Shown: piece after piece, positions 32,591 to 40,630 of the stretch
Layout: the number at the start of each line of letters is the position of its first letter
Position numbering within the stretch: the stretch's first letter is position 1
Origin: Microvirga sp. KLBC 81
Lineage (GTDB): Bacteria; Pseudomonadota; Alphaproteobacteria; Rhizobiales; Beijerinckiaceae
Assembly (NCBI RefSeq): GCF_003075415.1
Contig: NZ_QDAH01000008.1
Span: forward strand, 1-64,000
DNA length: 64,000 nt
Reading direction: 5' to 3'
Program-made: the position numbers and the translations under genes
Notes under the pieces: generated by a model
The model's database searches: none
What the model saw: only the letters and a program-made list of their open reading frames with translations
What the model was told of the DNA's origin: nothing

Positions 32591-33463
32591 TCACGGCTTC
32601 TCGTTGCGCAGCCTCTCCACCGCCTCCATGCGAGGCTTTGCGGTCTCCCACAGACGTTTCGTCACGGCGGCAACGAGCGCTTCGGTGATGAGCAGGAGAC
32701 CTGTTGACGAGTCCCAGTTCGAGGGTGCCACGATGTGGGCAGGCAGCACGTGGCGGGCGACGCGCGCGATGGGCGAGAGCCAAGGATCGGTGAGCAGAAC
32801 GACCGTCGCGCCTTGCTTTGCCGCCGTTTCACACAAAGCCGTCACATCTTCCTGATAGCGGCGGATGTCGAAGGCGACGATCACGTCCTTTTTGCCGATT
32901 TCGATCATCCGGTCGCGCCAGAGAGCCGGCTGGCCTTCGATGAAATCCACTTGGCTTCGCACGATGCGGAAATGACTTTCCGCATAACGTGCAAGCGCAC
33001 CCGTGAAACGTCCGCCCGTGAAGTGGATGTGGCGGCGTGGGTCGCTCAAGAGTTCCACCACCGCGTCGAACTCGGCAGGCGCGATGTTTTCCACCGTTGC
33101 GCGCAGGTTGCCGATCACCGCCTCGGCGAAAGAAGCGAGCGCCGGGGCGCGCTGGCCCTTGTCCGAGGGGCTCGCCTTGGCGAGGGGGGAGAGGAGCTGC
33201 GCCTCGAGTTCCCCGCGCAGGTGCTTCTGGAAATCCGGGAAGCCGCTGAAGCCCAGCCTTGTCACGAAGCGCAGAACCGACGGAGCGGAAATCCCGGCGC
33301 GGGTGGCGAATTCCGCCACCGTATCAAGGCCGGCAAAGGGATAATGGCTGAGCAGCAGGTGTGCGGCCCGCTTCTCGCTGGGCGTGAAGGAATCCATTTC
33401 GAGGCGGATGCGCTCGGCCAGGCTTGGCGGATCGACAGGGGGGATCATGCTGTCATCTTTCAT
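32591..33463 (-). CDS. MurR/RpiR family transcriptional regulator
   Basis: 290 residues. N-terminal HTH_6 domain (~12-88, FTPSEKRAAHLLL, AGISAPSVLRFVTRLGFSGFPDFQKHL) and C-terminal SIS domain (~125-260, HFTGGRFTGALARYAESHF, KDVIVAFDIRRYQEDV). SIS domains bind phosphosugars in most members, though many rhizobial RpiR proteins control amine or amino acid use. It is divergent from the amidohydrolase gene, which heads the permease/GS/ALDH/ADH set, so it is the likely local regulator. An AAGGAGGGGG site lies upstream. Confidence 0.9.
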   Translation of the reverse strand: MKDDSMIPPVDPPSLAERIRLEMDSFTPSEKRAAHLLLSHYPFAGLDTVAEFATRAGISAPSVLRFVTRLGFSGFPDFQKHLRGELEAQLLSPLAKASPSDKGQRAPALASFAEAVIGNLRATVENIAPAEFDAVVELLSDPRRHIHFTGGRFTGALARYAESHFRIVRSQVDFIEGQPALWRDRMIEIGKKDVIVAFDIRRYQEDVTALCETAAKQGATVVLLTDPWLSPIARVARHVLPAHIVAPSNWDSSTGLLLITEALVAAVTKRLWETAKPRMEAVERLRNEKP

Positions 33464-33601
33464 GTTGGAATGTTTCGTCCCCCTCCTTGACGGTTTCCAA
33501 AAGCTGTACCAAAAATTTCAGCTAAGAAAAATCTGTAAGAAACGTACCAAGCGTTCAAACGAGGGCTTCAGCCTGCTCCCCGCAGGCAAACGGAGGACCG
33601 C
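33464..33601. promoter_or_regulatory. Divergent control region between rpiR-like and amidohydrolase genes
   Basis: AT-rich for this genome. It has an imperfect dyad AGCTG-N12-CAGCT and two GTACCAA copies (CTGTACCAAAAAT and ACGTACCAAGCG) about 40 bp apart, which are candidate RpiR operators. An ACGGAGGACCGC ribosome-binding site precedes the plus-strand gene. Confidence 0.5.
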
Positions 33602-34390
33602 ATGGCGCATGCGAGTCGGATGGCAGCCGGTCAGGAACCCGCTACCCAGGCGGCGGAGCCGGCTGCTCTCTTGGAGAACCCCCAGGGGCGCTCACCCATC
33701 CTGCTCATTTGCGAACACGCCTCCCGGCACCTCCCGGACCGTTACGGCACGCTCGGCCTGACCCCTGAGCAGCTCGAAAGCCATATCGCATGGGATCCCG
33801 GCGCGCTCGGGGTCGCCAAGGAGCTTTCCCGGCTTCTCGACGCGCCGCTGATCCATGCCACCGTCTCGCGCCTCGTGCTCGATCTCAACCGCGATCCGTC
33901 CGCTCCGGATTCCATCTGGACCCTGAGCGAGCGCACCTCCATTCCCGGCAACCAGAACCTCGATCCGGCCGAGCGCGCCTGTCGCGTTCGCGAGGTCTAT
34001 GATGCGTTTCACGGTGCTGTGGACCTCTTCATCGAGCCTCGCCTGAGGGCAGGGCAGACGCGCAGCATCGTATCCATCCATTCGTTCACGCCGGTTTACC
34101 GGGATGTACCGCGTCCCTGGCAGATCGGCCTCATCTACGATCACGACGCGCGCTTCGCGCTGAGCGTTGAGGCCGGATTGCGCAAGGATCCGGCCCTGAA
34201 TGTGGGCATGAACGAACCCTATTCGCCGGCGGACCGGGTGTTCCACACCCTTGAGCGCCACGCCGAGAGGCGCGGGCTCGCACCGCTGATGATCGAAATC
34301 CGCAATGATCTGATCCGCACGGAAGACGGACAGGCATCGTGGGCTCACCGTCTTGCGCCGCTTTTGAGGGAGGGCGCGCAGACGCTTTGA
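33602..34390 (+). CDS. N-formylglutamate amidohydrolase family protein
   Basis: 262 residues. Conserved zinc-peptidase-like motifs are LLICEHASRHLPDRYG (EHAS), VSRLVLDLNRDP, IVSIHSFTPVYRD (His ligand) and MIEIRNDLI. Named family members hydrolyse N-formylglutamate in histidine degradation, but no other hut genes are present here. Its place beside a glutamine-synthetase-family gene and two dehydrogenases suggests it cleaves a gamma-glutamyl amide instead; that is inference. The start is fixed by CGGAGGACCGC. Confidence 0.88.
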   Translation: MAHASRMAAGQEPATQAAEPAALLENPQGRSPILLICEHASRHLPDRYGTLGLTPEQLESHIAWDPGALGVAKELSRLLDAPLIHATVSRLVLDLNRDPSAPDSIWTLSERTSIPGNQNLDPAERACRVREVYDAFHGAVDLFIEPRLRAGQTRSIVSIHSFTPVYRDVPRPWQIGLIYDHDARFALSVEAGLRKDPALNVGMNEPYSPADRVFHTLERHAERRGLAPLMIEIRNDLIRTEDGQASWAHRLAPLLREGAQTL

Positions 34391-34396
34391 CGACAG

Positions 34397-34420
34397 CCAT
34401 GGCGCATGAGGTGCCATGGC
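34397..34420. terminator. GCCATGGC hairpin after the amidohydrolase gene
   Basis: GCCATGGC arms (34397-34404, 34413-34420) around GCATGAGGT-like sequence, directly before the family B repeat. There is no strong U-tract, so termination is uncertain. Confidence 0.4.
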
Positions 34421-34421
34421 T

Positions 34422-34553
34422 AGCGCATCGTGCGGAACCGAAGGTCCGCGTCAGCGAAAAGTGGATCCGGCTTTCCGCATGAACGATGCGCTACTGAGGA
34501 GATGAGCATCGGATCGATCCCAAAAGTGGCGTCCACTTTTGGGTCCGATGCTC
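34422..34553. repeat. Composite dispersed repeat (family B, two units)
   Basis: Unit 1 runs from AGCGCATCG (34422) to CGATGCGCT (34492); unit 2 from GAGCATCGG (34504) to CCGATGCTC (34553). It is nearly the same as 15474-15609. Confidence 0.85.
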
Positions 34554-34587
34554 GAGAGGGGACAGACTATTCGTGGAGGAAGAGTCG

Positions 34588-36123
34588 ATGTCAGTCGGAC
34601 AAGGAAGTCCTGGGGTTCACGCCCCGCCGGCCGGGGCGCAAGGCGCTGCCGGCGTCACCTACAATACCGTGGATGAGAGCTACTTCGAGGCACGGCGTCT
34701 CAGACGTCATGCGCGCGTGTGGTCGCTCTGGGCGCTCGGCGTGGGAGCCGTGATCTCGGGCCATTATTCGGGTTGGAACCTGGGCCTCGCCAATGGCTTC
34801 GGCTCCATGTTCTATGCGACCATCATCATCGCCATCATGTATCTCGGCCTGACCTTCTCCATCGCGGAGATGTCTCCGGCCCTGCCGCATACGGGCGGTG
34901 CCTACTCGTTCGCACGCACCTCCATGGGGCCGTGGGCGGGCTACATCACGGGCATTGCAGAGAACATCGAGTTCGTGCTGACACCGGCGGTGATCGTTTT
35001 CTTCATCGGCTCGTACCTGTCGGCGATCTTCGGCACGGCGCCGGAGTTCCAGCCGGTCTATTGGGTGCTCTGCTATGCCCTGTTCGTCGGTCTCAACATC
35101 GTCGGTGTCGAACTCTCGTTCAAGGTGACCGTCATCGTGACCCTGCTGGCGCTGGCATGCCTCGTCGTGTTCTACGTCGCGGTGCTGCTCTCCGGCCAGT
35201 TCGACTTCTCGCGCTGGGCGCTGAACATCGGCCCCGATGGCGCGGAGCTGCCGAATGGCGGCGGGCCGTTCCTGCCCATGGGCATCGGCGGCATCTTCGC
35301 CACCATGCCGTTCGCCGTGTGGCTCTTCCTCGCCATCGAGCAGTTGCCGCTGGCCGCGGAGGAATCCCACGATCCGCAGCGTGACATGCCCAAGGGCATC
35401 ATCGCCGGCATCCTGACGCTGATCGTCTCCGCCTTCTGCGTGGTCTTCCTGAACTCGGGGATTGCGCCGGGATCATTCGGCATCGCGAAGTCGGGCGAGC
35501 CGCTGCTCGACGGTTTCCGGACGCTCTTCGGCACGGATATCGCGAAGATCCTGGCGGCTGTCGCCGTGATCGGCCTCATCGCCTCGTTCCATACGATCAT
35601 CTTCGCCTTCGGACGGCAGATCTACTCGCTCTCGCGAGCCGGCTACTTCCCGTCCTTCCTGTCGGTCACGCACGGCACGCGCAAGTCGCCGCATATCGCG
35701 CTCATCACGGGTGCGCTGCTCGGCTTGGCGGTGATGCTGATCATCTGGTTCGTCAGGGGCTCGGAAGCCGGTGCGACCGTCATCGGCGGCACGCTGCTCA
35801 ACATGGCGGTGGCAGGCGCGATGCTGGCCTACTTCATGCAGGGCATGTCCTACATCGTGCTCAAGAAGAAGTTCCCGCATCTGGCGCGGCCCTACAAGAG
35901 CCCGTTCGGGATCGCAGGCGCGGTTGTTTGCATGGCCATTGCCGCCGTGACGCTGTACTTCCAGTTCACGGATCCCGTGTTCCAGACGGCCGTGATCGGC
36001 GTCGCGGTCTATTACGCGGTCATGATGGCCTATTTCCTGGTGCATGGACGCCACAAGCTCATCCTCTCGCCGGAGGAAGAGTTCGCCGTGTCCAAGGGCG
36101 AGGCCGAGTACAAGTCCTACTGA
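34588..36123 (+). CDS. APC-superfamily amino acid/ethanolamine permease
   Basis: 511 residues, about 12 transmembrane helices. GVGAVISGHYSGWNLGLANG (TM1), IAEMSPALPHTGGAYSFAR (TM2-3) and TGIAENIEFVLTPAVIVFFI match the ethanolamine permease (Eat, TIGR00908-like) branch of the APC superfamily. The first ~35 residues are a Gly/Pro/Ala-rich cytoplasmic tail. The start was chosen by GGAGGAAGAGTCG. It is the first gene of a co-directional set with the GS-like, ALDH and Fe-ADH genes, so it probably imports their substrate. Confidence 0.9.
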   Translation: MSVGQGSPGVHAPPAGAQGAAGVTYNTVDESYFEARRLRRHARVWSLWALGVGAVISGHYSGWNLGLANGFGSMFYATIIIAIMYLGLTFSIAEMSPALPHTGGAYSFARTSMGPWAGYITGIAENIEFVLTPAVIVFFIGSYLSAIFGTAPEFQPVYWVLCYALFVGLNIVGVELSFKVTVIVTLLALACLVVFYVAVLLSGQFDFSRWALNIGPDGAELPNGGGPFLPMGIGGIFATMPFAVWLFLAIEQLPLAAEESHDPQRDMPKGIIAGILTLIVSAFCVVFLNSGIAPGSFGIAKSGEPLLDGFRTLFGTDIAKILAAVAVIGLIASFHTIIFAFGRQIYSLSRAGYFPSFLSVTHGTRKSPHIALITGALLGLAVMLIIWFVRGSEAGATVIGGTLLNMAVAGAMLAYFMQGMSYIVLKKKFPHLARPYKSPFGIAGAVVCMAIAAVTLYFQFTDPVFQTAVIGVAVYYAVMMAYFLVHGRHKLILSPEEEFAVSKGEAEYKSY

Positions 36124-36125
36124 TG

Positions 36126-36160
36126 ACGATCGGGGGCGCGCATCCTGCGCGCTCCCTTCA
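36126..36160 (+). terminator. GC-rich hairpin between permease and GS-like gene
   Basis: GGGGGCGCGCA / TGCGCGCTCCC arms followed by TTCATCTTTCTC. It could be a terminator, an attenuator or an mRNA-stability element. Confidence 0.5.
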
Positions 36161-36183
36161 TCTTTCTCGTTGGGGTTTCGAGC

Positions 36184-37554
36184 ATGACCGCTCCCAAAAT
36201 CAAGAACGCTGCCGACGCAATCCAATACGTGCGCAGCCGCGACCTGCCTTTCGTGAAGATCGGCCTCACCGATGTCGACGGCATCATGCGCGGCAAGTAC
36301 ATGGCCCGCGACAAGTTCGAATCCGCCCTCGAAAAGGGGTTCGGTTTCTGCGACGTGGTGCTGGGCTGGGACTCCAACGATCAGCTTTATGACAACACGA
36401 CGCTGACCGGCTGGCATACGGCTTATCCCGATGCCACCGCGCGCGTGCTGCCGGAGACCATGCGCCTCGTCCCCTTCGAGAACGATCTCCCGTTCTTCCT
36501 CGCCGAGTTCGAGGGTTATGCGGAGCCGGCCTGCCCGCGCGGCGTGCTGCGGCGCGTGTTGAAGAAGGCGGAGGACATGGGCTTTGCCGTCTCGGCGGCG
36601 GCCGAGTTCGAGTTCTTCCTCTTCGAGGAAACGCCGCACTCCGTGCGCGAGAAGGATTACCGGAACCTCAGGAACATCACGCCGGGCTTCTTCGGCTATT
36701 CGGTGCTGCGCTCGGGCGTGCACGCGGATTTCTACCACGAGCTGCTCGACCTCGCGAACAAGATGGATTTCGAGATCGAGGGCCTGCACACGGAAACGGG
36801 CCCCGGTGTGCTGGAAGCCGCGATCCGTGTGGATGATGCGCTGAAAGCGGCCGACAAGGCAGTTCTGTTCAAGACCTACACCAAGATCCTCGCGCAGCGT
36901 CGCCGCTGGATGGCCACCTTCATGGCCAAGTGGTCGCGCGACTGGCCCGGGCAGTCCGGCCACCTGCACTCGTCGCTGCGCCACCTCGACACCGGCAAGG
37001 GCGCGTTCTATGACCCTAACGTCGAACACAACATGTCGGAGACCATGCGCTGGTATGTGGGCGGCCAGCAGAAGCTGATGCCCGAGATCCTCGCCATGGT
37101 GGCCTGCACGGTGAACAGCTACACCCGCCTCATTCCGGGCTTTTGGGCGCCGACGGATTCCGCCTGGGGCGTCGAGAACCGCACCACGGCGCTTCGCGTC
37201 ATTCCCGGTTCCGAGAAGTCGCAGCGCGTGGAGTATCGCGTCGCCGCCGCCGACATCAACCCGTATATCGCGCTTGCCGCCGCCATCGGATCCGGCCTCT
37301 GGGGCATCGAGAACCGCGTCGATCCTGGCGAGCCGATTAAAGGAAATGCCTATGCGGTGGAACATCCGAAGGAGCGGGCCCTGCCGCGCTCTCTCGGCGA
37401 GGCCGCCGAGCGCCTGAAGGGCTCCAAGGCTGCGCGTGAACTCTTCGGAGACACCTTCGTCGACCATTATGCCGCGACACGCGAATGGGAGGAGAGGGAG
37501 GCCCGCAAGGCCATCACCGACTGGCAGCTCGCACGCTACTTCGAAATCATCTAA
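36184..37554 (+). CDS. Glutamine synthetase family protein (probable gamma-glutamyl-amine/amino-alcohol ligase)
   Basis: 456 residues. It retains the catalytic metal/ATP/glutamate motifs: AAAEFEFFLFE (Glu ligands), ETGPGVLEAAI, SGHLHSSL (ATP/His), NSYTRLIPGFWAPTDSAWG and VEYRVAAADINPYIALAA. It lacks the GlnA adenylylation loop Tyr signature and is closest in plan to the GlnA3/PuuA/IpuC-type ligases that attach glutamate to amines. The neighbouring permease, Fe-ADH and ALDH point to gamma-glutamylation of an amino alcohol. This is not the housekeeping GS. Confidence 0.88.
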   Translation: MTAPKIKNAADAIQYVRSRDLPFVKIGLTDVDGIMRGKYMARDKFESALEKGFGFCDVVLGWDSNDQLYDNTTLTGWHTAYPDATARVLPETMRLVPFENDLPFFLAEFEGYAEPACPRGVLRRVLKKAEDMGFAVSAAAEFEFFLFEETPHSVREKDYRNLRNITPGFFGYSVLRSGVHADFYHELLDLANKMDFEIEGLHTETGPGVLEAAIRVDDALKAADKAVLFKTYTKILAQRRRWMATFMAKWSRDWPGQSGHLHSSLRHLDTGKGAFYDPNVEHNMSETMRWYVGGQQKLMPEILAMVACTVNSYTRLIPGFWAPTDSAWGVENRTTALRVIPGSEKSQRVEYRVAAADINPYIALAAAIGSGLWGIENRVDPGEPIKGNAYAVEHPKERALPRSLGEAAERLKGSKAARELFGDTFVDHYAATREWEEREARKAITDWQLARYFEII

Positions 37555-37581
37555 GAGACTTCAGGACTCAAACCAGGAGAA

Positions 37582-37612
37582 GACGATGGTCCTCATCAGA
37601 CCATCGTCTTTC
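37582..37612 (+). terminator. 11-bp perfect hairpin at the ALDH gene start
   Basis: AGACGATGGTC - CTCATCA - GACCATCGTCT followed by TTC. The left arm contains the ATG at 37586 that follows the AGGAGAAGACG site. It could attenuate transcription or hide the start codon. Confidence 0.55.
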
Positions 37613-39016
37613 AAACGTAAGATCATGGCTGATACCGATATCGTCTGTATTTCCCCCATCGACGGCCGCGAACTCGTCCGCCGGCCGATCATGACCGATG
37701 CCGCCATCGATGCGGCGATCACGACCGCCCGCGAAGCGCAAGTTGCGTGGCGCCACGTGCCTCTCTCCGAGCGCGCGAGCAAGGTGTCGGCCTTCCTTGA
37801 TGCTCTGCTTGCCATGAACCAGGAAGTCGTTCCGGAAATCGCTCAGATGATGGGCCGCCCGGTGCGCTATGGCGGTGAGTTCCGTGGTGTCGAGGAGCGC
37901 GCGCGCTACATGATCGGCATTGCGGAGAAGAGCCTGCAGAATATTCCCGCCGATGACGAGAAGGCGGGCTTCCGTCGCATGATCAAGCGCGAGCCCGTGG
38001 GCCTCGTGCTCGTGATCGCGCCCTGGAATTATCCTTATCTCACGGCCATCAACACCATCGTGCCAGCGCTCATGGCCGGTAACGCGGTGCTTCTGAAACA
38101 TGCGTCGCAGACGGTGCTCGCGGGCGAGCGCTTCCAGATGGCGATGGATCGCGCCGGCATGCCGAAAGGCGTGTTCCAGAACATGCATCTGAGCCACGGT
38201 CAGACGAGCCGCATTCTTGGCAATGGCCTCGTCGATCACTGCAACTTCACGGGCTCGGTCGGCGGTGGTCGCGCCATCGAGCGCGCGGCAGCAGGCTCCT
38301 TCACCTCGCTCGGCCTCGAGCTCGGCGGCAAGGACCCGGCCTATGTGCGCGAGGACGCGAATATCGACCACGCCATCGAGAACCTGGTCGATGGCGCCTT
38401 CTTCAACTCGGGCCAGTGCTGCTGCGGCATCGAGCGTATCTATGTGCACGAGAAGCACTATGACCGCTTCGTGGAAGGCGCAGTCGATCTCGTGAGCAAA
38501 TACGTGCTCGGCAATCCGCTTGAAGAGTCAACGACACTGGGTCCCATGGCGCATAAGCGCTTCGCAGATCTCGTGCGCGGGCAGAATGCGGAAGCGGCGG
38601 CGAAAGGGGCGAAGGCGCATATTGATACCAAGCGTTTTGCGGCTGACACAGGCAATACCGCCTATCTCGCGCCGCAGGTGCTCACCGACGTCGATCACTC
38701 CATGAGCGTCATGCGCGAGGAGAGTTTCGGCCCCACCGTCGGCATCATGAAAGTGAAGGGTGACGAGGAGGCGATCCGTCTCATGAACGACTCACCCTAT
38801 GGCCTCTCCGCTGCCATCTGGACCTCCGATGTGGATGCGGCCGAGGCCATCGGCGAGAAGCTCGAGACCGGCACCGTGTTCATGAATCGCTGCGACTATC
38901 TCGATCCCGCTCTCGCCTGGACAGGCGTGAAGGATACGGGCCGCGGTGCCAGCCTCTCGCGCCTCGCCTACGAGTCACTCACCCGTCCGAAATCGTACCA
39001 TCTCCGTCAGATCTGA
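37586..39016 (+). CDS. NAD-dependent aldehyde dehydrogenase
   Basis: About 476 residues. Motifs: IAPWNYPYLTAINTIVPALMAGN (cofactor-binding), FTGSVGGG, the catalytic Glu in LGLELGGKDPAY and the catalytic Cys in NSGQCCCGIERIYV. The ATG at 37586 has a strong AGGAGAAGACG site but lies in a hairpin; the ATG at 37625 (MADTDIVCIS) is the alternative and gives the usual ALDH N-terminus. In the cluster it would oxidise the aldehyde made by the Fe-ADH. Confidence 0.92.
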   Translation: MVLIRPSSFKRKIMADTDIVCISPIDGRELVRRPIMTDAAIDAAITTAREAQVAWRHVPLSERASKVSAFLDALLAMNQEVVPEIAQMMGRPVRYGGEFRGVEERARYMIGIAEKSLQNIPADDEKAGFRRMIKREPVGLVLVIAPWNYPYLTAINTIVPALMAGNAVLLKHASQTVLAGERFQMAMDRAGMPKGVFQNMHLSHGQTSRILGNGLVDHCNFTGSVGGGRAIERAAAGSFTSLGLELGGKDPAYVREDANIDHAIENLVDGAFFNSGQCCCGIERIYVHEKHYDRFVEGAVDLVSKYVLGNPLEESTTLGPMAHKRFADLVRGQNAEAAAKGAKAHIDTKRFAADTGNTAYLAPQVLTDVDHSMSVMREESFGPTVGIMKVKGDEEAIRLMNDSPYGLSAAIWTSDVDAAEAIGEKLETGTVFMNRCDYLDPALAWTGVKDTGRGASLSRLAYESLTRPKSYHLRQI

Positions 39017-39027
39017 TTGAAAGCATC

Positions 39028-40191
39028 ATGACCACGTCTCCCCGCTCCAACTGGAATTATCCCACGGCGGTCCGTTTCGGCGCAGGCCGCATTTCGGAAC
39101 TCACTGAGGCCTGCAAGTCGGTCGGCATGTCGTCGCCGCTCATCGTCACGGATCCGTTCCTCGCCACTCAAGCCATGACGAAAGCTGCGCTCGACCAGCT
39201 GATCACCGCTGGCTTCAAGGCTGCGATCTTCTCGGACATCAAGCCGAATCCGGTCGAGACGAATGTCTACAAGGGCCTCGAAGCGCTGAAAGCCGGCAAG
39301 CATGATGGCGTCGTCGCCTTCGGCGGCGGTTCGGCGCTCGATGCCGGCAAGGTCATCGCCTTCATGGCGGGCCAGACCCGTCCCATGTGGGACTTCGAGG
39401 ATATCGGCGATTGGTGGACCCGTGCGGATCCTTCAGGAATCCTGCCGATCATCGCCGTGCCGACGACCGCTGGCACGGGCTCGGAAGTGGGCCGCGCCGG
39501 CGTCATCACGCAGGAGTCCACGCACACCAAGAAGGTGATCTTCCATCCGCTCATGATGCCGAAGATCGTGATCTGCGATCCGGAACTCACAATCGGCATG
39601 CCGCCCCACATCACGGCAGGCACGGGTCTCGATGCGCTTGCGCATTGCATCGAGGCCTATTGCGCGCCCGGCTACCACCCGATGGCCGACGGCATCGCGG
39701 TCGAAGGCATTCGCCTCGTGAAGGAGTACCTGCCGCGCGCCTACCGGGACGGCAAGGACATCGAAGCCCGCGCGCAGATGATGTCGGCCGCCGCCATGGG
39801 CGCCACCGCGTTCCAGAAGGGCCTTGGCGCGATCCATGCGCTGTCGCATCCGACCGGTGCGCTCTACGATACGCATCATGGTCTGACGAACGCGGTCTTT
39901 ATGCCGTATGTGCTGGTTTATAACCGCAAGGCCATCGAGACGAAGATCGAGCGTCTCGCCGCCTATATCGGTCTCGAGCCGTCGTTCCAGGCCTTCCTCG
40001 ATTGGGTTCTGCAGCTGCGCAAGGATCTCGGCGTGCCGCACACGCTGGAGGGCTTGAAGGTCGACAGCGCGCGGTTCGACGAGATGTCCGAGATGGCGCC
40101 CAACGATCCCACTGCCGGCGGCAACCCGGTGCCGATCACCAAGGAGAGCGCGCGCAAGCTCTTCGAGGATGCGCTGGCCGGACGGCTTTGA
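39028..40191 (+). CDS. Iron-containing alcohol dehydrogenase
   Basis: 387 residues, group III ADH. GGGSALDAGKVIAFMAG binds the nucleotide, VPTTAGTGSEVGRAGVI follows, and metal ligands lie in GTGLDALAHCIEAY (Asp/His) and GAIHALSHPTGALYDTHHGLTNAV (His). It starts 11 bp after the ALDH stop. Role proposed from context: oxidation of a gamma-glutamylated amino alcohol to the aldehyde. It is followed by a convincing terminator. Confidence 0.93.
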   Translation: MTTSPRSNWNYPTAVRFGAGRISELTEACKSVGMSSPLIVTDPFLATQAMTKAALDQLITAGFKAAIFSDIKPNPVETNVYKGLEALKAGKHDGVVAFGGGSALDAGKVIAFMAGQTRPMWDFEDIGDWWTRADPSGILPIIAVPTTAGTGSEVGRAGVITQESTHTKKVIFHPLMMPKIVICDPELTIGMPPHITAGTGLDALAHCIEAYCAPGYHPMADGIAVEGIRLVKEYLPRAYRDGKDIEARAQMMSAAAMGATAFQKGLGAIHALSHPTGALYDTHHGLTNAVFMPYVLVYNRKAIETKIERLAAYIGLEPSFQAFLDWVLQLRKDLGVPHTLEGLKVDSARFDEMSEMAPNDPTAGGNPVPITKESARKLFEDALAGRL

Positions 40192-40223
40192 GTGTCGTTC
40201 TCGATTGCCTAAACAGCTAAAAG

Positions 40224-40257
40224 ACGGCGCATCGGATTTGCTGATGCGCCGTTCCTC
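40224..40257 (+). terminator. Rho-independent-type terminator after the Fe-ADH gene
   Basis: Arms ACGGCGCATC (40224-40233) and GATGCGCCGT (40243-40252), a 9-base loop, then TCCTCT. It marks the likely end of the permease-GS-ALDH-ADH operon. Confidence 0.65.
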
Positions 40258-40285
40258 TATCCGGCCTTATCATGGAGAAGGCATC

Positions 40286-40630
40286 GTGGAAAAAGGTCCA
40301 AGCCGCGATATTCAGGTCACCCTCACGCAAGCGGCTGGTCACCTTTCAGCAGAAAGCCCATTCAAGACTTTTTTCGAGCAAGGCGAGGAAATCGCTGTCG
40401 AACTCTATGCGCCCGTCGGCACCGACAAGCAGACGCCTCACGAGCGGGATGAGCTTTACATCATCGCGTCAGGACACGGCACCTTCAGCCGCGGCGAGGA
40501 GCTTGTCACCTTCGAGCCTGGCGATCTTCTGTATGTGCCGGCTTATATCCCGCATCGCTTCGAGACCTTCTCGGAGGATTTCAAGACATGGGTGATCTTC
40601 TACGGGCCAAAGCGCGCTCGGCCTGCATGA
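40286..40630 (+). CDS. Small cupin-domain protein
   Basis: About 114 residues with a single cupin barrel. Motif 1 is TPHERDELYIIASGHGTFSRGEE and motif 2 is FEPGDLLYVPAYIPHRFE. The GTG at 40286 is preceded by GGAGAAGGCATC and lies after the terminator; longer in-frame starts would run through the terminator hairpin. Metal ligands His/Glu/His are present. It may be transcribed separately from the upstream operon. No function assigned. Confidence 0.8.
   Translation: MEKGPSRDIQVTLTQAAGHLSAESPFKTFFEQGEEIAVELYAPVGTDKQTPHERDELYIIASGHGTFSRGEELVTFEPGDLLYVPAYIPHRFETFSEDFKTWVIFYGPKRARPA

Follow-up and report, generated by a model that had tools for sequence, protein, structure and literature searches.

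A locus at positions 32591-40630 of the analyzed stretch of Microvirga sp. KLBC 81 (64,000 nucleotides, referred to here as the window) is very probably an inducible operon for ethanolamine utilization via gamma-glutamylation. It holds a conserved set of genes of defined families, and their core is associated in related genomes with ethanolamine-type transporters. The substrate, each reaction and the regulation are predicted for this organism by homology. The permease would import ethanolamine and the glutamine synthetase (GS)-like ligase would couple it to the gamma-carboxyl group of glutamate, using ATP. The iron-type alcohol dehydrogenase (Fe-ADH) would then convert gamma-glutamylethanolamide to the aldehyde, the aldehyde dehydrogenase (ALDH) would convert this to gamma-glutamylglycine, and the FGase-family hydrolase would split the product into glycine and glutamate. 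The RpiR protein is likely a substrate-responsive regulator. This route had been put forward in a preliminary description of the locus, and it matches the published pathway of Chromohalobacter salexigens, Phaeobacter and Streptomyces coelicolor step for step, here by homology.

The glutamyl cap would block the amine and hold the aldehyde covalently, so that neither an ammonia-lyase nor a microcompartment would be needed. The absence of an ammonia-lyase was upheld as far as EutB is concerned, with no matches in the own genome (the control search found it in E. coli); EutC and shell or microcompartment genes were not searched for.

Gene content of the locus

The host genome is 6.86 Mb in size with an estimated completeness of 100% and contamination of 6.63%, and the locus lies on contig C8. 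All seven open reading frames (ORFs) of the preliminary gene list were present at or very near the positions below, and each family assignment scored above the Pfam gathering score. Six genes run on the plus strand from 33602 to 40630, and the regulator gene is divergent from them.

32591..33463, minus strand: RpiR/MurR-family regulator (HTH_6 PF01418 and SIS PF01380 over cut-off)
33464..33601, no strand: divergent promoter region (alignment of Microvirga upstream sequences)
33602..34390, plus strand: FGase-family amidohydrolase, predicted gamma-glutamylglycine amidohydrolase, GGAH (FGase PF05013, 133 bits)
34588..36123, plus strand: APC-family permease, predicted ethanolamine importer (AA_permease_2/AA_permease; best NCBIfam match TIGR00908)
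36184..37554, plus strand: GS-like gamma-glutamyl-amine ligase, predicted ethanolamine gamma-glutamylase (Gln-synt_C PF00120, 324 bits)
37625..39016, plus strand: aldehyde dehydrogenase, predicted substrate gamma-glutamyl aldehyde (Aldedh PF00171, 383 bits)
39028..40191, plus strand: iron-type alcohol dehydrogenase, predicted to oxidize gamma-glutamylethanolamide (above cut-off for PF00465 and PF25137)
40244..40630, plus strand: small cupin, accessory at most (Cupin_2 PF07883, 41 bits)

Conservation of the core

The locus was compared with 120 fetched loci (L037-L156), giving 121 stretches with the window. Five loci with weak GS matches (L072-L076) were dropped by score. The remaining 116 were reduced to 93 at less than 90% GS identity, and 72 of these had at least 5 kb on either side. 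Genes were searched for within 7 kb around GS. The sample is biased to close relatives, being made up of the best 80 of at least 581 loci plus 40 stretches that come from 39 of the 49 remaining genomes of the class with a match.

In 47 of the 72 non-redundant loci, a strong ALDH match and a strong Fe-ADH match shared the strand of the orthologous GS gene, which argues that the three genes are grouped beyond chance. Counted separately, ALDH was present in 51 loci and Fe-ADH in 59. The core count rose to 51/72 when weak or opposite-strand matches were allowed, adding L041, L069, L071 and L115. The gene association was conserved across families and classes. This argues against an incidental grouping of a true glutamine synthetase with a hydrolase of histidine degradation, a reading that is very improbable.

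Two variant arrangements were observed. L105 (Denitrobaculum) and L113 (Pelagibius) had an SDR gene directly 3' of the GS-like gene, with the ALDH-Fe-ADH pair approximately 2.5 and 3.3 kb further on, respectively. A Rhodobacteraceae plasmid (CP081101.1, L158) carried FGase, GS and ALDH genes with no Fe-ADH listed in the stretch, for which the gene table may be incomplete. An aminotransferase gene lay upstream, and genes for a polyamine-type ABC importer and an N,N-dimethylformamidase followed downstream; the set may represent a related route for a different amine.

The GS-like ligase

The ligase was 27% identical to the single other GS-family gene of its own genome, a canonical GS. Trp321 of the ligase occupies the position of Glu in the GYEAP motif of that canonical GS. 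This Glu is taken to be E327, on the basis of the motif; the equivalents of D50 and Y179 were likewise presumed from the alignment and from motifs. Trp was found at the E327-equivalent position in 92 of the 93 aligned relatives and the remaining one had a gap. PauA7 has Trp and GlnA4 of S. coelicolor has Phe at this position, and E327, D50 and Y179 of true GS were used to argue against glutamine synthesis (PMC6529630). The Trp thus speaks against glutamine synthetase activity, while residues like D50 and Y179 look retained and speak for it. The combined glutamine synthetase and HutG reading was rejected on the canonical copies of both genes elsewhere in the genome.

Within the GS tree the window paired with Microvirga puerhi (support 100/99) and deeper forks were poorly supported. 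Identity was 89 to 94% to nine of the ten loci named Microvirga and 69% to the tenth, a metagenome bin (L133). The ligase was 66% identical to the GS of Billgrantia, which adjoins a gene for an EtoX-like TRAP protein. Ligases of other amines are more distant relatives, with identities of 39% for an annotated IpuC and 30% for PuuA.

Transporters

The best NCBIfam match of the permease was the ethanolamine permease family TIGR00908. The preliminary label of an ethanolamine-type permease holds insofar as this is the nearest family, but the score of 349.8 bits lies under the cut-off of 381.75.

The orthologous core of Billgrantia antri (L134) comes after TRAP genes, whose binding protein matched PDB 4uab/4xf5 with 532 bits. 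A class-I amidotransferase follows the Fe-ADH in this locus and no FGase was found nearby. 4uab is taken to be Csal_0678, the ethanolamine-binding protein of C. salexigens, and 4xf5, which has the same sequence, presumably contains an aminopropanol ligand. Ethanolamine is bound by Csal_0678, which lacks the arginine usual in TRAP proteins (PMC4646407). A 4uab-like (EtoX-like) binding protein was encoded in eight of the 93 orthologous loci, namely Billgrantia and seven others with 62 to 82% identity to that of Billgrantia. The TRAP genes were on the opposite strand in three of these eight (L109, L114, and L115).

Among the 72 loci an APC permease was present in 27 and a TRAP binding protein in nine, and the two never occurred together (p = 0.010). 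This value is weakened by the relatedness of the loci, by the mixture of TIGR00908-like and TIGR00907-like members in the APC group, and by the three of nine TRAP proteins that are not EtoX-like.

The same chemistry could serve another amine, be it alaninol, 1-amino-2-propanol or 3-aminopropanol, or primary amino alcohols more broadly. The sub-threshold permease score and the kinship with the IpuC and PuuA ligases would fit this reading, which is nevertheless unlikely. Orthologous cores adjoin TRAP proteins close to 4uab, presumably an ethanolamine binder, and phosphoethanolamine induces the corresponding proteins of Phaeobacter (PMC10132767).

The FGase-family hydrolase

The window hydrolase scored 20.5 bits against the HutG equivalog TIGR02017, far below the cut-off of 278.75. 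A true HutG is encoded elsewhere in the genome (L002, 362.1 bits). Both results argue against a role of the window hydrolase in histidine degradation. The one solved structure found to be related was 2odf, Atu2144, at 203 bits. Atu2144 is presumed to be an Agrobacterium gene of that organism's ethanolamine cluster. Agrobacterium tumefaciens C58 is named among the carriers of the gamma-glutamyl ethanolamine pathway (PMC10132767).

A paralogue was also present in the genome (L003, G000:C10:65672-66289). It was 43% identical to the window hydrolase, scored 27.1 bits against HutG and may act on another gamma-glutamyl or N-acyl substrate.

An FGase was found in ten of the 72 loci and a class-I amidotransferase in 18. 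Nine loci had FGase only, 17 amidotransferase only, one had both (L094) and 45 neither. Mutual exclusion of the two was not statistically supported in these loci (Fisher one-sided p = 0.22). Three of the ten FGase loci were Microvirga, the window among them. The amidotransferase profile was built on matched segments; of four members scanned, all had the GATase Pfam domain and three also had Peptidase_C26.

The chances are about even that the route is modular, with a fixed core of ligase and two dehydrogenases, swappable APC or TRAP importers and two unrelated gamma-glutamylglycine hydrolases of the FGase fold or the PuuD-like class-I amidotransferase type. The window would then be one such combination.

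Evidence against the ethanolamine reading

Several results weigh against assignment of the locus to ethanolamine. The permease falls 32 bits short of the TIGR00908 cut-off. Among the 11 loci encoding a TRAP binding protein, three have one of a different type (19 to 21% identity or no match), and L126 has an EtoX-like protein with no ALDH or Fe-ADH nearby. The D50 equivalent (D70) looks retained in 91 of 93 relatives and the Y179 equivalent (Y172) in all 93, so that the residue argument against glutamine synthesis holds only in part. At an E-value of 1e-80 the ligase was absent from all three further genomes that represent the host's family in the class sample. The 45 loci mentioned above had no FGase and no class-I amidotransferase nearby; some of these may have a diverged hydrolase missed by the profiles or a hydrolase elsewhere in the genome.

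Regulator, promoter region and accessory features

RpiR relatives were present in nine of the 72 loci, counting the window. One of these (L110, Thalassospira) combined an RpiR relative with an EtoX-like TRAP protein in one locus. Alignment of the region 33464-33601 showed two stretches common to ten Microvirga sequences including the window, CTGTAYCARAAATTYCA, the second being less strict. They were not shared by three non-Microvirga sequences of the same alignment. No inverted repeat of at least 8 nt was found by a repeat search of this region. The two conserved stretches could be operators for RpiR.

The preliminary description had also counted the cupin in the gene set. The gene is present, but its membership is weakly supported. 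Among nine close Microvirga relatives one had a cupin at 82% identity, one had a 46% match and seven had no significant match, and the cupin was rejected as a core member for this reason.

A dispersed repeat of approximately 140 bp with internal inverted repeats was located at 34420-34565, between the hydrolase and permease genes. The own genome contained at least 39 further near-full-length copies with 82 to 88% identity and nine short matches (40 of 410 candidates scored). The repeat may influence co-transcription of the hydrolase and permease genes.

Comparison with known systems

The pathway is already published, and the locus is very probably a member with a single APC permease instead of a TRAP importer, plus a cupin. 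The novelty implied in the preliminary description is not supported, as Table 2 of PMC9397018 already has an iron dehydrogenase and a member of the formylglutamate-amidohydrolase family in these roles. For C. salexigens ethanolamine metabolism that table lists a ligase (PF00120), an iron-dependent dehydrogenase (PF00465), an aldehyde dehydrogenase (PF00171) and a gamma-glutamylglycine/formylglutamate amidohydrolase (PF05013), with the S. coelicolor counterparts SCO1613, SCO1611, SCO1612, and SCO1615, respectively. The window has the same four families together. It differs from C. salexigens in lacking a TRAP binding protein such as Csal_0678, a gene-level comparison made via the halomonad relative Billgrantia. 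The C. salexigens pathway is described as predicted in silico in PMC6529630 and as demonstrated, along with that of A. tumefaciens, in PMC10132767.

The operon of Phaeobacter sp. MED193 comprises RpiR, GGAH, EtoV, EtoW, EtoX, ETAGA, GAADDH, and GETADH (PMC10132767). Five of its proteins were raised on phosphoethanolamine and EtoX bound ethanolamine with a Kd of 7.9 uM. As in the window, the RpiR regulator is next to the hydrolase and the order of roles is the same, but a three-gene TRAP importer (EtoVWX) takes the place of the single APC permease. The two operons are likened by their described roles and not by Pfam families or identities.

The GlnA4 pathway of S. coelicolor (SCO1611-1615) shares with the window a GS-like ligase, two dehydrogenases and a predicted FGase-family hydrolase, and some Streptomyces species have a putative ethanolamine permease or transporter gene in the cluster (PMC6529630). 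GlnA4 forms gamma-glutamylethanolamide; it is induced by ethanolamine, and growth on this amine requires it. This system differs in its EpuRI regulator, and the Figure 2 legend of that paper gives a short-chain dehydrogenase and a glutamine amidotransferase. In the papers cited, direct evidence comes from other organisms. The ligase was assayed and deleted in Streptomyces, the binding of ethanolamine is described for Phaeobacter and C. salexigens, and induction for Phaeobacter and Streptomyces.

Two further systems are more distant. PuuPABCD of E. coli follows the same order of gamma-glutamyl capping, oxidation and hydrolysis, but uses the oxidase PuuB and the hydrolase PuuD. The Ipu isopropylamine pathway also has a GS-like ligase acting on a monoamine; the annotated IpuC compared here, from Paenarthrobacter aurescens TC1, differs in its neighbors, such as SDR and P450 genes.

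Significance

Microvirga was not named in the literature on ethanolamine and glutamylation among the matches listed. The locus opens no long-standing question. Through it, a route already described for a common product of phospholipid breakdown reaches into the Methylobacteriaceae. Among 289 genomes sampled from the class, 46 (the own genome included) encode a ligase of at least 58% identity, a sign of a widespread route. Better names are also suggested for genes that mostly carry the annotation glutamine synthetase or N-formylglutamate amidohydrolase.

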